From: Hyphomicrobiales bacterium
GTDB taxonomy: Bacteria > Pseudomonadota > Alphaproteobacteria > Rhizobiales > Rhizobiaceae
Assembly: GCA_900473795.1 (NCBI GenBank)
Contig: UCMT01000044.1
Span: forward strand, 62,001 to 126,000
Direction of reading: 5' to 3'
DNA: 64,000 nucleotides
Below are positions 25,953 to 31,526 of the stretch, piece after piece; position 1 is the stretch's first letter; the number at the start of each line of letters is the position of its first letter. Both the position numbers and the translations under genes were made by a program. A model generated the notes under the pieces. It had not been told where the DNA came from, did no database searches, and saw only the letters and a list, made by a program, of their open reading frames with translations.

Positions 25953-28019
25953 ATGACGGTTGCCTATCTGGAAAAACTGAACGAGCAGCAGCGCCAGGCT
26001 GTGGAACACGGCGTTGGACTGGCGGACGGACAGACGGCGGGACCGCTTCTGATCATCGCCGGCGCCGGATCCGGCAAGACCAATACCTTGGCTCACCGGG
26101 TCGCCCATCTGATCGTCACTGGCGCCGATCCGCGGCGGATGCTGCTGATGACGTTTTCGAGACGTGCAGCGTCAGAAATGTCGCGCCGCGTCGAGCGGAT
26201 CTGCAAACAGGTGCTTGGCGCCAATTCCGGCGTGCTCACCGACGCGCTGGCTTGGTCCGGCACGTTTCATGGGATTGGGGCACGGTTGCTGCGGATCTAT
26301 GCGGAGCAGATCGGGCTGAACGCGGATTTCACCATCCACGATCGCGAGGACAGCGCCGACCTGATGAACCTTGCCCGTCACGAGCTTGGATTTTCCAAGA
26401 CCGAAAACCGCTTTCCCACAAAGGGCACGTGCCTGTCGATCTATTCGCGGGCGGTCAATTCGCAAACGCCATTGAACGAGATCCTGCGCCAGCACTATCC
26501 TTGGGTGGCAAGCTGGGAAGAACAGCTGAAGCAGCTGTTTGCCGCTTACGTCGAAGCCAAGCAGGCCCAGAACGTGCTCGATTACGACGATCTTCTGCTC
26601 TACTGGGCCCAGATGGTCAGCGATCCCGAACTGGCAGATGATATCGGCAATCGCTTCGACCATGTCATGGTCGATGAATACCAGGATACCAACAGGCTGC
26701 AGGCGTCCGTGCTGATGGCGCTCAAGCCCGGCGGCCGCGGCTTGACCGTTGTGGGCGACGATGCGCAGTCGATCTATTCCTTTCGGGCAGCGACGGTCCG
26801 CAACATCCTCGATTTCCCATCATCCTTCAGTCCGGCCGCCGATATCATCACGCTTGACCGCAATTACCGCTCGACGCAGCCGATCCTGGCTGCGGCCAAT
26901 GGCGTCATCGAACTGGCGCGCGAACGCTTCACCAAGAACCTGTGGACCGACCGGCAATCGCTGGAGCGGCCGAAACTGGTGACAGTCAAGGATGAAACCG
27001 AGCAGGCGAACTTCATCGTCGATCACGTGCTCGCCAATCGCGAAACCGGCATGACGCTGAAGAACCAGGCCGTGTTGTTCCGCACGTCCAGCCATAGTGG
27101 CCCGCTGGAGGTCGAGCTCACCCGCCGCAACATTCCCTTCGTCAAGTTCGGCGGCCTAAAGTTTCTCGACAGCGCCCATGTGAAGGACATGCTGGCGGTG
27201 CTGCGGTTCGCGCAAAACCCGCGCGACCGCGTCGCCGGTTTCCGCCTGCTGCAGATGCTCCCTGGCATCGGGCCAAAGACGGCCGGCAATATTCTCGACA
27301 CGATCGCGGCTGACCCCGAGCCATTGCTGGCTCTTGCCGAAATCCCGCCTCCGCCCAAGACCGGCGAAGACTGGACATCCTTCGTCCAGTTGCTCGCAGG
27401 CCTGCGCAAGACGGAAGCTGGCTGGCCCTCAGATATCGCACAAGCACGTGTCTGGTATGAGCCACATCTCGACCGCATCCATGAGGATGCCGACACCCGC
27501 AAGGCAGATCTGTTGCAGCTCGAGCAGATCGCCAGCGGCTATCCGTCACGCGAACGCTTCCTGACCGAACTGACGCTTGATCCGCCGGATGCCACCAGCG
27601 ACCAGGCCGGCGTGCCGCTGCTCGACGAGGACTATCTGATCCTGTCGACCATTCATTCGGCAAAAGGCCAGGAATGGCGCGCGGTCTTCATGCTGAGTGT
27701 GGTCGATGGCTGCATTCCCTCGGATCTGGGAACCGGGACCAGCCAGGAACTCGAGGAAGAGCGCCGGCTGCTCTATGTCGCGATGACGCGCGCCAGGGAC
27801 AGTTTGGCGCTGATCACGCCGCAGCGGTTTTTTACCCATGGACAGAACGCGCAGGGCGACCGGCACGTTTATGCCGCAAGAACGCGGTTCATTCCGGCAA
27901 CGCTGCTGCAATTCTTCGAGACGACGACCTGGCCGAAGGTCTCGGTAGCTGCGTCTGAGCGAAGCGCCCAGCAGATCCGTATCGATGTCGGCGCGCGTAT
28001 GCGAAGCATGTGGAAATAG
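25953..28019 (+). CDS. UvrD/Rep-family ATP-dependent DNA helicase
   Basis: A 688-aa superfamily 1A helicase. Motif I is IIAGAGSGKTNTL, motif II VMVDEYQDTN, motif III VVGDDAQSIYSFR, motif V TIHSAKGQEWRAVF and motif VI YVAMTRARD. A helix-hairpin-helix-like stretch (LPGIGPKTAGNIL) is inserted in domain 2B. It probably unwinds DNA or strips proteins during repair. Its position across the LexA box from imuA, and in front of an SRAP gene and dinB, points to the SOS regulon. It is not the housekeeping UvrD by context. Confidence 0.93.
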   Translation: MTVAYLEKLNEQQRQAVEHGVGLADGQTAGPLLIIAGAGSGKTNTLAHRVAHLIVTGADPRRMLLMTFSRRAASEMSRRVERICKQVLGANSGVLTDALAWSGTFHGIGARLLRIYAEQIGLNADFTIHDREDSADLMNLARHELGFSKTENRFPTKGTCLSIYSRAVNSQTPLNEILRQHYPWVASWEEQLKQLFAAYVEAKQAQNVLDYDDLLLYWAQMVSDPELADDIGNRFDHVMVDEYQDTNRLQASVLMALKPGGRGLTVVGDDAQSIYSFRAATVRNILDFPSSFSPAADIITLDRNYRSTQPILAAANGVIELARERFTKNLWTDRQSLERPKLVTVKDETEQANFIVDHVLANRETGMTLKNQAVLFRTSSHSGPLEVELTRRNIPFVKFGGLKFLDSAHVKDMLAVLRFAQNPRDRVAGFRLLQMLPGIGPKTAGNILDTIAADPEPLLALAEIPPPPKTGEDWTSFVQLLAGLRKTEAGWPSDIAQARVWYEPHLDRIHEDADTRKADLLQLEQIASGYPSRERFLTELTLDPPDATSDQAGVPLLDEDYLILSTIHSAKGQEWRAVFMLSVVDGCIPSDLGTGTSQELEEERRLLYVAMTRARDSLALITPQRFFTHGQNAQGDRHVYAARTRFIPATLLQFFETTTWPKVSVAASERSAQQIRIDVGARMRSMWK

Positions 28020-28030
28020 GGAGAGGATCG

Positions 28031-28708
28031 ATGTGCAACCTTTACAACGTGACCACCACCCGTGACGCGGTTCTCCAGTTCACGAAAGCCTTCCGGGATC
28101 GAGCCGGCTGGAATGAAGCCTCCTTCGACGTATATCCAGGCTATCAGGCGCCGATTGTCCGCGTTGCCGAGGACGGACAGCGCGAGATTGCCCGGGCGAC
28201 CTGGGGAATGCCGTCGCCGCCGGCTTATGTGAAAAACTACGATCCCGGCGTCACCAATATTCGCAATGTGAGTTCGCCGCACTGGCGGCGCTGGCTTGGC
28301 CCGACCAGCCGCTGCGTCGTGCCGTTCACGTCTTTTGCCGAACCTGATCCTGCCAGCAAACTCGAGGGCGGACGCGTGCCGAACGCCTGGTTCGCGGGCA
28401 ATGAAGATCGGCCGCTGATGTTTTTCGCGGGCTTCTGGACCCCGTGGAAGGGCGTGCGCAAAGTCAGGGATGGCGAGCAGGAATACGAGCTGTTTGGATT
28501 TCTGACGACCTCGCCCAACGAGATTGTCTCGCCGATCCATCAAAAGGCCATGCCCTCCATCCTGACCACGCCTGAAGAAGTCGAGACCTGGCTGATAGCA
28601 CCGTGGGATGAAGCCCGCCACCTACAGCGTCCGCTCCCGGGCAACATGCTTGTGATCGTGCCGCCACAGGCCAAACCGAAGCCGGACGAGGAAGGTCTGT
28701 TGCTTTGA
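28031..28708 (+). CDS. SOS response-associated peptidase (SRAP/YedK family)
   Basis: A 225-aa SRAP protein. It starts MCNLYNVTTT, so Cys2 becomes the N-terminal nucleophile after Met removal. Further conserved parts are WGMPSP, NVRNVSS-type sequence (here TNIRNVSSPHWR), RCVVPFTSFAEPD and the active-site His in IHQKAMPSIL. Family members form a covalent link to abasic sites in single-stranded DNA and shield them. It lies 11 bp after the helicase and overlaps the frame of dinB, consistent with an SOS operon. Confidence 0.93.
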   Translation: MCNLYNVTTTRDAVLQFTKAFRDRAGWNEASFDVYPGYQAPIVRVAEDGQREIARATWGMPSPPAYVKNYDPGVTNIRNVSSPHWRRWLGPTSRCVVPFTSFAEPDPASKLEGGRVPNAWFAGNEDRPLMFFAGFWTPWKGVRKVRDGEQEYELFGFLTTSPNEIVSPIHQKAMPSILTTPEEVETWLIAPWDEARHLQRPLPGNMLVIVPPQAKPKPDEEGLLL

Positions 28709-28740
28709 TCACCAACACAGAGCACGACCAGGGCAGTCAA

Positions 28741-29868
28741 ATGGCCGTTTACCAAATGCCGGCTTATCCTGTGGGCACTGACGTCATGGGGAGCGCGCAA
28801 AACGTGCGCAAAATCATCCATGTCGATATAGATGCCTTTTATGCCTCGGTCGAGCAACGTGACAATCCGGAGCTGCGTGGCCTGCCACTGGCCGTCGGCG
28901 GGTCGGCGGCACGCGGTGTCGTAGCGGCTGCAAGTTACGAGGCCCGTGTCTTCGGCGTGCATTCGGCCATGCCGTCGGTCACCGCCAAGCGCAAATGTCC
29001 GGACTTGATCTTTGTGCCGCCGCGCTTCGACGTCTACAAGGCGGTATCGCAGCAGATCCGCGAGATCTTCGCCGAATATACGCCGCTGATCGAGCCGCTG
29101 TCGCTGGACGAAGCCTATCTCGATGTCACCGAGAACCTGAAGGGCATGGAGATCGCCACGGAGATTGCGCTGGAGATCCGAGCTAAGATCAAGGCGGTCA
29201 CAGGCCTCAATGCCTCGGCAGGCATTTCTTACAACAAGTTTCTCGCCAAGATGGCGAGCGATCTGAACAAGCCGAACGGACAGGCTGTCATCACGCCGAA
29301 GAACGGCCCGGGTTTTGTCGAAGCCCTCCCCGTCAAGAAATTCCATGGGATCGGGCCGGCCACGGCCGAGCGGATGAAACGGCATGGAATCGAGACGGGG
29401 CTTGATCTCAAGTCGAAGTCCCTCGCGTTCCTTCAGCAGAATTTCGGGAAGTCCGGTCCTTATTTCTACGGCATTGCCCGTGGGATCGATGAACGCCGGG
29501 TGAGACCCGATCGCATTCGAAAGTCTGTTGGCGCCGAGGACACGTTCGTTGAGGACATTGACAATTTCGATCTCGCCAAAGCCGAGCTGCGGCCATTAGC
29601 CGAGAAAGTCCTGCGCTACTGCGAGGCGCACGACATCACGGGAAAGACCGTAACAGTCAAAATCAAATATTCGGATTTCAGCCAGGCGACACGCAGCCAG
29701 ACAGTGTCGGCAGCCGTCTCCGACGTCGACCATATGCTGGAGATTGCAGAGACCCTGCTCGCCTCGGTGTTCCCGTTCAAACGTCCGGTGCGGCTCTTAG
29801 GGGTCACCCTTTCATCGCTCAACACGGAAGAAAGCGGGCAAGAACCGCAGCTAGATCTCGGGCTCTGA
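28741..29868 (+). CDS. dinB: DNA polymerase IV (DinB)
   Basis: A 375-aa Y-family polymerase. Catalytic motifs HVDIDAFYASVEQ and SLDEAYLDVT (Asp/Glu pair), the helix-hairpin-helix KFHGIGPATAERMKRHGI, and a little-finger domain ending GVTLSSLNTEE with a possible beta-clamp motif (QEPQLDLGL) at the tail. A TTG at 28705 that overlaps the SRAP stop and an ATG at 28786 are alternative starts. The most N-terminal conserved residue is near 28800, so the true start is uncertain. It is the third gene of the SOS operon. Confidence 0.93.
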   Translation: MAVYQMPAYPVGTDVMGSAQNVRKIIHVDIDAFYASVEQRDNPELRGLPLAVGGSAARGVVAAASYEARVFGVHSAMPSVTAKRKCPDLIFVPPRFDVYKAVSQQIREIFAEYTPLIEPLSLDEAYLDVTENLKGMEIATEIALEIRAKIKAVTGLNASAGISYNKFLAKMASDLNKPNGQAVITPKNGPGFVEALPVKKFHGIGPATAERMKRHGIETGLDLKSKSLAFLQQNFGKSGPYFYGIARGIDERRVRPDRIRKSVGAEDTFVEDIDNFDLAKAELRPLAEKVLRYCEAHDITGKTVTVKIKYSDFSQATRSQTVSAAVSDVDHMLEIAETLLASVFPFKRPVRLLGVTLSSLNTEESGQEPQLDLGL

Positions 29869-29883
29869 TGCAGCCGGCCCTGA

Positions 29884-30048
29884 AAACAAAAAAGCCTGCC
29901 GCGGGAGGAGGTGCGGCAGGCTTTTCGAAAAGAACCGAACAACGGCTGGGAGGAGGAGTGCCGCTGTTCCGACAGACGTCCCTTGGGAGGAGGAGTGGGC
30001 CGTCTGAATTCGAAGCTCTGCGGGAGGAGGTGCATCGCTTCGATGAAA
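29884..30048 (-). ncRNA. alpha-r14/NfeR1-like sRNA with four anti-Shine-Dalgarno hairpins
   Basis: On the minus strand there are four successive hairpins, each with a loop containing CCTCCTCCC or CTCCTCCTCCC (the complement GGGAGGAGG lies at plus-strand 29903, 29948, 29985 and 30022). The stems are 30011-30016/30037-30042, 29973-29978/30001-30006, 29937-29946/29960-29969 and 29891-29902/29913-29924. The last is a 12-bp stem followed by TTTTTTGTTTT, a Rho-independent terminator. Rhizobial alpha-r14 sRNAs (NfeR1, 'cuckoo' RNAs) have this design and base-pair with ribosome binding sites of many mRNAs. Most described members have about three such hairpins, so four is on the large side. The 5' end is approximate. 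Confidence 0.8.
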
Positions 30049-30169
30049 ACCAAGATACCCATTCACGCCGCACATTAAATAGACTTTGCTGCACTGCAGC
30101 TATGTGGAAAATGCACGGCCTAATTCTGATGAGAGCGATCTCCAGCACAGCGCCTCGCGGCGGTCAGAC

Positions 30170-30198
30170 ACAGAAACGCCCGCGTCATCAGCGGGCGT
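30170..30198 (-). terminator. terminator of the DUF1127 gene
   Basis: Perfect 8-bp stem ACGCCCGC (30176-30183) / GCGGGCGT (30191-30198) with a 7-nt loop, read on the minus strand and followed by TTTCTG, 33 bp after the DUF1127 stop codon. Confidence 0.7.
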
Positions 30199-30230
30199 AG
30201 TGTCATTCAGGATGGGCAGGAAAAAGCCGC

Positions 30231-30377
30231 TTAGCGAGCGACCGACTGGCGAGCAACGCTGTGGATGTCGGCACGATTGATACCGAGGTCCTGCAGCTCG
30301 CGCGAGCTCATGCGGCCGAGTTCGGTAACGGTCTGACGATACTTGCGCCAGCTGTTGAAAGAGCGTGCTACGTTCAT
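30231..30377 (-). CDS. DUF1127 small protein
   Basis: 48 aa starting MNVARSFNSWRKYRQTVTEL and containing RMSSRELQDLGINRADI, the DUF1127 (YjiS-like) signature. Rhizobial proteins of this family are basic small proteins linked to RNA turnover and phosphate/carbon adaptation. The start at 30377 is preceded by AAAGGGG at good spacing; the longer frame upstream lacks family similarity. It is monocistronic, with its own terminator. Confidence 0.88.
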   Translation of the reverse strand: MNVARSFNSWRKYRQTVTELGRMSSRELQDLGINRADIHSVARQSVAR

Positions 30378-30545
30378 GATGATCCCCTTTCGTGAGGTCT
30401 CTTGACGCCAGCAACCTTGCTTTGGTTCCAACGTCGTTTCGATGATTGAGATATAGGCCCTTGGACACCCGTCGATAAGGCACAAGGTCTCAGGTCGGCC
30501 ATGCGCTCAAAGCATGGGTCCGATCAGAGATAGGCTGAGGGGGCA

Positions 30546-31526
30546 TCAGGCCCGGAACCGGTCGAAGGCAGTGAGGCGTTTGATTGGAGGATCGGCGTCT
30601 GGATAACGATAGATTTCGGCTCGGAGATAGCGAAGTTCATTGTCAAGCGCATCTTCACCCACCTCGATCCACCAGGATTTCGGGCGGCCATCGCTTCCGT
30701 CGGACCACCGGTAGCCTCGGGTCTTGAGATGATCCTTCATATCGAAGGGGCTGTTCTCCGCGAAAATCCGGACACGCGACCTCTGGCTTGCCTCATAGAG
30801 TTCGGCAAAAGCGGAGAACGCAGATCCATCGTCTTGCCGGGCGAGAACTTCCAAGAGCGCGAAACAATCATCAACAGCACGATGACCCTCATGAAAATAT
30901 CCCGCTTGCCCGATCAGGTATCCGAGCTTGGTGCCTTCATATCCCCGCAACGACCAGTCGATCTCGGAGTTGGAGCAAGCCCAGGCCTTGCCGGAGAATA
31001 AAGGAGAGAATGCCTCGCAGAATGGCCGGTCGAAACCGGCATTGTGGGCGATCAGCAGATCCGCTGGCTCGATCAGCGCCCGCAACGCCGCCGTGTCGAT
31101 CGACTGCCCGGCGACCATGTCGTCGGTAATCCCGGTGAGCCTGGTGATCTCAGTGGGAATGGAAACGCTCGGCTGCTGGAGTCCACCGTAGATGCCGCTC
31201 ACGTCACCGATACGACCTGTCTCATCGAAGGTGAAAGCGATCACGCCAATCTCGATGATCTCATCCTTGCGAGCATTGAGGCCCGTGGTCTCGGTGTCGA
31301 GAATGATGCCCCTGAGGGGGTACCCTGGCCGGACGAATGGTGCGATTGCGCGCGGCACAAGTTTCTGAAGGATACGATATCGACCAGTCTCCGACAGATG
31401 CCGGACCATGTCCTCTTCACTCATGGGGATGGCATGCTTGTCCGGTTCAGCGGATTTTGAGGGCCCACGCACGACCATATGGTCGCGCGGAACCTGCTCC
31501 GAAAACATGTCAAACTGTTCTGCCAT
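30546..31526 (-). CDS. DEDDh 3'-5' exonuclease (DnaQ-like)
   Basis: A 326-aa protein. The exonuclease core at about residues 70-245 shows ExoI ILDTETTGLN, ExoII HNAGFDRPF and ExoIIIepsilon GHRAVDDCFALLEVL. The N-terminal 65 residues are charged and not conserved, and about 80 C-terminal residues form a DUF-like tail with Trp-rich RWSDGSDGRPKSWW. Related solo exonucleases proofread or trim DNA; the location beside SOS genes suggests a repair role. It is not the epsilon subunit by length or architecture. Confidence 0.88.
   Translation of the reverse strand: MAEQFDMFSEQVPRDHMVVRGPSKSAEPDKHAIPMSEEDMVRHLSETGRYRILQKLVPRAIAPFVRPGYPLRGIILDTETTGLNARKDEIIEIGVIAFTFDETGRIGDVSGIYGGLQQPSVSIPTEITRLTGITDDMVAGQSIDTAALRALIEPADLLIAHNAGFDRPFCEAFSPLFSGKAWACSNSEIDWSLRGYEGTKLGYLIGQAGYFHEGHRAVDDCFALLEVLARQDDGSAFSAFAELYEASQRSRVRIFAENSPFDMKDHLKTRGYRWSDGSDGRPKSWWIEVGEDALDNELRYLRAEIYRYPDADPPIKRLTAFDRFRA

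Follow-up and report, generated by a model that had tools for sequence, protein, structure and literature searches.

A predicted four-hairpin anti-Shine-Dalgarno RNA of the ar14 family with an LsrB/VtlR-type promoter box and a DUF1127 gene neighbor in a Rhizobiaceae genome

The locus and the predicted fold of its minus-strand RNA

The stretch of DNA analyzed here (64 kb, referred to as the window) carries on its minus strand a gene for a small DUF1127 protein followed by a predicted four-hairpin RNA, on which dinB, encoding DNA polymerase IV, converges from the plus strand (Table 1). The region on the 5′ side of the RNA, with the DUF1127 gene, a terminator, and the promoter box of the sRNA, lies beyond what the earlier note on this DNA had covered. 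On the dinB side, genes for a UvrD-like helicase, an SRAP-domain protein, and DinB form a tight same-strand row (25953 to 29868) that is likely a DNA-damage cassette.

Table 1. Positions of the features at the locus, numbered along the window
Feature	Position	Strand	Basis or remark
dinB (DNA polymerase IV)	28705..29868	+	convergent neighbor, outside the module
Four-hairpin anti-Shine-Dalgarno sRNA, SmelA099-like	29887..30045	-	ar14 match; predicted 5′ end at about 30045, transferred by alignment from the published end of SmelA099
H4, terminator hairpin, CCUCCUCCC loop followed by a U run	29887..29926 (stem 29926-29889)	-	fold and ar14 match
H3, CCUCCUCCC looped out	29935..29971	-	fold and ar14 match
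H2, CCUCCUCCC looped out	29973..30006	-	fold and ar14 match
H1, additional 5′ hairpin, loop ACCUCCUCCC	30010..30043	-	fold; beyond the Rfam ar14 model
Candidate -10, TATCTT	30052..30057	-	alignment; 6 nt ahead of the predicted start
Promoter box TGCA-N6-ACATAGCTGCAGTGCA, LsrB/VtlR-type	30090..30115	-	alignment; one base off GCAT-N3-TG-N3-T
Terminator-like hairpin between the DUF1127 gene and the sRNA promoter	30176..30198	-	
DUF1127 protein gene (48 aa), upstream partner of the sRNA	30231..30377	-	Pfam PF06568, 57.3 bits
VtlR/LsrB-like box of the DUF1127 gene, core GCATGGCCGACCT	30491..30505	-	one base off (CG for TG); 128 nt before the start codon

The motif GGGAGGAGG occurs exactly four times on the plus strand, at 29903, 29948, 29985, and 30022 (spanning 29903 to 30030), and no further copy was found on either strand of the window. 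By a first-order Markov estimate, 64 kb would be expected to hold only 0.28 copies on each strand, and four copies within 128 bases are therefore not due to chance. The minus strand between 29885 and 30055 folds at -68.4 kcal/mol, and none of 200 dinucleotide shuffles of the same segment was equally stable (mean, -46.45; standard deviation, 4.27; z-score, -5.14). In this fold, all four copies of CCUCCUCCC are unpaired within hairpin loops. The motif positions and the fold thus bear out the proposal of the earlier note that each plus-strand GGGAGGAGG sits in the loop of a stem. Its description of a minus-strand RNA with four CCUCCUCCC loops and a terminator also stands, but the terminator stem, given there as 12 bp, has 14 pairs in the fold.

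The RNA had also been described as lying directly downstream of dinB, which is correct as to position but not otherwise: because dinB converges from the opposite strand, the relationship is positional only. A link to the function of dinB was rejected, as a convergent dinB is found at just 19 of 119 four-hairpin loci among the matches listed. A paralogous locus also speaks against such a link, since, judged by eye, it has just a fragment resembling an eroded 3′ end of dinB. This second four-hairpin copy of the source genome (L004, G000:C18, about 1240 to 1480) is accompanied by a DUF1127 gene as well as by the apparent dinB fragment, as if dinB, sRNA, and DUF1127 gene had been copied together. 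Since an A run lies on the other side of H4, this hairpin may also end dinB transcripts.

Family membership and the four-hairpin form

When the entire window was scanned with Rfam, the sole match above the gathering score was ar14 (alpha-r14, RF02344) on the minus strand at 29887 to 30012, with 107.3 bits against a gathering score of 58.8 and with model positions 1 to 123 of 123 covered. This full-length match fits the alpha-r14/NfeR1 style assigned in the earlier note, which had named a model search as a check. The match spans the three 3′ hairpins and leaves H1 outside, and since the model stops short of H1, a scan records a four-loop copy as a three-loop RNA. A strict description of alpha-r14 (NfeR1-like, three hairpins) does not accommodate the window copy. 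Two families with CCUCCUCCC in all loops have been described, RFMSmelA075 with three hairpins and RFMSmelA099 with four, the motif being termed anti-Shine-Dalgarno; the same paper suggests that both forms belong to one family in which the number of hairpins varies (PMC3927594). The window RNA shows the defining feature of RFMSmelA099, a series of four hairpins that each carry the loop motif, and because it has four rather than three, it is placed there. It shares with NfeR1 the anti-Shine-Dalgarno loops, the full-length model match, and an LsrB-type site at a nearly equal distance, whereas NfeR1 has three hairpins and lacks the additional 5′ hairpin. VrsA of Agrobacterium, considered as a possible ar14 RNA, has a reported size of about 300 nt.

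The closest known counterpart is SmelA099 (smrA6) of Sinorhizobium meliloti, an RNA of 160 nt from the minus strand of pSymA (1328175 to 1328334) (PMC2873474, PMC7143759). At the published coordinates, NC_003037 reads from AATCGAAGCGATGCACC to TTTTTCGT, which places all four hairpins on a single RNA of 160 nt; the 5′ end of this RNA lies just ahead of the H1 stem, and its 3′ end lies just past the terminator. The DinB converging on SmelA099 is 72% identical to the window DinB over 354 aa. Because the published ends cover all four hairpins and the convergent dinB is shared, the window locus is taken as the counterpart of SmelA099, and transfer of the published 5′ end places the predicted start of the window RNA at about 30045. 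The two RNAs have in common the four hairpins, the loop motif, the sequences of H1 and H4, and the adjoining convergent dinB, but their H2 and H3 stems have different sequences. They also differ in that no DUF1127 match was found within the 3.5 kb examined on pSymA, while the window RNA has a DUF1127 neighbor. Judged by these sequence comparisons, the window RNA is an orthologue of the known sRNA SmelA099 and not a new kind of RNA.

The ar14 family is present in every one of the 26 genomes of the genus sample (148 matches in total). The source genome has six matches, three of which are of the four-hairpin type (the window copy, L004, and L005). We compared 64 of the 65 ar14 loci in 11 genomes, namely, 6 from the source genome and 58 from ten others; the remaining match (G007:C7:92913-93024) overlaps L058 and was omitted. 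The H1 motif is found at the same position in 31 of these 64 loci. All of the loci compared are related, and these counts and those that follow are thus not counts of independent events.

For 29 of the 31 loci with H1 (L058 and L059, with altered 3′ ends, were omitted), the four-helix structure has 95.6% of its pair cells paired, and 15 of its 43 pairs change on both sides. Neither value was reached in any of 500 shuffles, and structures slid along the alignment had at most 46.4% paired; as many further pair types were reached in 11 of the 500 shuffles. These controls lean toward the structure, since its source was a single aligned sequence and the sequences in the alignment are related to one another. 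Changes on both sides affect 7 of 9 pairs in H2, 6 of 11 in H3, and 1 of 10 in H1. Covariation is thus strong in H2 and H3, while the evidence for H1 and H4, both nearly invariant, is conservation and not covariation; few parts of the alignment are as well conserved as the stem and loop of H1. Covariation of H1 alone was tried as a measure and was uninformative because this hairpin hardly varies.

Several other arrangements were observed among the relatives. L058 (G007:C7, 646 to 828) has five anti-Shine-Dalgarno loop motifs, apparently derived from an internal repeat. In L074, L085, L090, and L091, the third loop motif is altered similarly (e.g., CCTCCTCTT), which may represent a shared loss of one loop. 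The source genome also contains a tandem pair of three-hairpin ar14 RNAs (L001/L002, G000:C31; 1520 to 2290 in L001 coordinates) ahead of a DUF1127 gene with its own LsrB-like box, so that the order is the reverse of that in the window, and another copy of the loop motif lies past the second terminator.

A pattern scan of genome contigs found at least 119 four-hairpin stretches. For 80 of these, the records are from Rhizobium, Sinorhizobium/Ensifer, Agrobacterium, Neorhizobium, Pararhizobium, Shinella, Ciceribacter, some other genera of Rhizobiaceae, and unclassified Rhizobiales. A search of 72,556 plasmid records with the stretch containing the sRNA and the DUF1127 gene matched 521 of them, 186 over at least 80% of the query.

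The promoter box and the upstream DUF1127 gene

Upstream of H1, the window has TGCA-N6-ACAT, occupying -70 to -57 relative to the predicted start. LsrB activates the NfeR1 promoter and binds there to a TGCA-N6-GCAT site lying within -72 to -57 (PMC10746234). LsrB is known as VtlR in Brucella, and the published VtlR box is GCAT-N3-TG-N3-T (PMC7486931). The latter is the better description of the site at these loci, since exact TGCA-N6-GCAT is present at just 10 of the 31 loci with H1. The window box has a single mismatch to the VtlR consensus, an A for the G of GCAT, and, judged by eye, the AbcR1 promoter of the source genome (L215, 1440 to 1452) also reads ACAT. Compared with the 15-base Brucella motif, the sRNA box of the window has four mismatches and the box of its DUF1127 gene has five.

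Among the matches listed, GCATNGCTGCNCTGCA with up to two mismatches is found about 75 nt ahead of the first loop motif at 109 of 117 loci, and exact GCAT-N3-TG-N3-T is found 74 to 76 nt before the H1 loop motif at 104 of 115 four-hairpin loci (4 loci with <200 nt of upstream sequence were left out). The chance rate of this box, determined for a subset of 80 four-hairpin loci, is 0.0007 per locus. Across the 11 genomes, the box accompanies 27 of 31 ar14 loci with H1 and 4 of 32 without it; L075, which has no loop motif, is in neither group. A conserved promoter, which the earlier note had named as a point on which its reading depended, is thus found in the form of a box kept at a fixed distance among four-hairpin relatives, although the window copy departs from its consensus by one base. 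The -35 region is weak, and a scan of minus-strand 29800 to 30600 for consensus sigma-70-type promoters found none and did not pick up TATCTT.

The source genome encodes a LysR-type regulator beside its two AbcR sRNAs, and this protein scores 621 bits against the LsrB structure 9HH1. AbcR1 and AbcR2 (ar15, two copies in the source genome) are also anti-Shine-Dalgarno sRNAs, with AbcR1 under LsrB/VtlR control, but they differ from the window RNA in Rfam family, structure, and loop sequence. The box and its spacing suggest that transcription of the window sRNA is most likely switched by LsrB (VtlR).

A plain three-hairpin ar14 RNA, whose mature transcript would begin or be processed between H1 and H2 and thus be without H1, would agree with the extent of the Rfam model, with the 33 of 64 ar14 loci that have no H1 motif at that position, and with the shorter forms reported for SmelA075, which are predicted to be without stem-loops. 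However, the published 5′ end of SmelA099 precedes H1, the conserved box and -10 region fit a start just ahead of H1, and H1 is conserved to the degree described above, which makes a transcript without H1 improbable.

Among the matches listed, a same-strand DUF1127 gene lies upstream of at least 57 of 119 four-hairpin loci, a lower bound because 10 of these loci have <400 nt of upstream sequence; in the 11 genomes, it was found within the stretch examined at 19 of the 31 loci with H1. The exact VtlR box is present about 125 nt before the start codon of 42 of 55 such paired genes among the matches listed (2 loci were left out). NCBIfam yielded no family for the 48-aa protein. VtlR is reported to positively regulate three DUF1127 genes in Brucella (PMC12595884), and atu1667 of Agrobacterium, a small gene orthologous to two Brucella DUF1127 genes, is reported to be directly activated by VtlR. 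The DUF1127 gene of the window is probably driven from a separate promoter, also by LsrB.

A same-strand upstream DUF1127 gene is also found at the Rhodobacter CcsR1-4/ccaF1 locus ("cuckoo RNA"/CIN1), and in this respect the window locus conforms to it. There, RNase E releases the CcsR RNAs by cleaving the ccaF1 transcript (PMC8625941, PMC10253847), and the Rhodobacter RNA RS0680a has identical anti-Shine-Dalgarno loops (PMC3927594). In Rhodobacter, the precursor is RpoH driven and yields an mRNA and four short RNAs, whereas in the window a terminator and a separate promoter box are followed by one RNA with four loops. RS0680a is itself a CcsR RNA. The window RNA could by analogy be a processed 3′ untranslated region of the DUF1127 mRNA, and both the single Rhodobacter transcript and the frequency of the upstream DUF1127 gene agree with such an origin. 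However, a terminator-like hairpin intervenes in 36 of 46 cases, the window among them (45 pairs from 80 loci plus the window), the sRNA is preceded at a constant spacing by a box of its own, and this box is kept also at loci at which a search over 900 nt revealed no DUF1127 gene (e.g., L097, L099, and L102). An origin from the DUF1127 mRNA is therefore very improbable.

That the locus is nothing but a repeat-built two-way terminator, as the A and T runs flanking H4 between two convergent units might suggest, is scarcely credible, given that four conserved loop motifs, covarying stems, and a conserved promoter box would all be superfluous for a terminator and that expression is known for relatives and function for NfeR1. 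A coding reading was rejected: minus-strand open reading frames cross the hairpins, but relatives differ by gaps of 1 and 2 bases in the alignment. A phage origin was likewise rejected, with no match among 50,697 phage records.

Proposed action and meaning for the family

We consider the best reading of the locus to be a single minus-strand sRNA of about 160 nt with its own promoter directly 5′ of H1 and its own terminator in H4, switched by LsrB and blocking translation through its multiple loops; we assign this reading as a whole a probability of about 0.85. LsrB would turn on one RNA, and any of its CCUCCUCCC loops could base-pair with an mRNA at its Shine-Dalgarno region and thereby block ribosome entry. 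The four loops would be redundant, giving the RNA many targets, as reported for NfeR1, which has three redundant loops, predicted pairing with many mRNAs, and confirmed repression of some of them (PMC10746234, PMC7143759, PMC8844928). For the window RNA, we infer multi-loop action and targets from the identity of its loops to those of NfeR1. According to a review, only one of the six S. meliloti NfeR1-type copies was reliably seen by northern blotting under the conditions tested; the window copy may thus be weakly expressed.

The family, the four-loop form, its association with DUF1127 genes, and the regulation of NfeR1 by LsrB and of DUF1127 genes by VtlR have all been published. In a limited literature search, no published description was found of a box common to the four-hairpin RNAs and their DUF1127 partners, and no publication was found that treats NfeR1, LsrB, and DUF1127 together. 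Bringing these elements together, we propose that H1 and the LsrB box occur jointly and define a distinct branch of ar14, with copies differing in the number of working loops (three, four, or five), and that the locus represents a copy of a duplicated, often plasmid-borne module with two outputs, in which LsrB/VtlR, via two separate boxes, switches on a small arginine-rich DUF1127 protein and a four-loop RNA. Taken jointly, we see the chances of this proposal being right or wrong as evenly balanced. Like CcaF1, the DUF1127 protein might have RNA as its target; alternatively, it might act on proteins, a mode of action shown in Agrobacterium (PMC12501420).

It has long been noted that DUF1127 genes and anti-Shine-Dalgarno RNAs occur in pairs in Rhizobiaceae. 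Whether both members of such a pair answer to one regulator can be tested concretely through the connection of H1 with the LsrB/VtlR box and the neighboring DUF1127 gene. The variation in loop number provides a natural variable for how multivalent RNAs choose their targets. If the proposed module is real, one stress regulator would silence many mRNAs while releasing a protein with a possible role in RNA handling or in sensor kinase binding.
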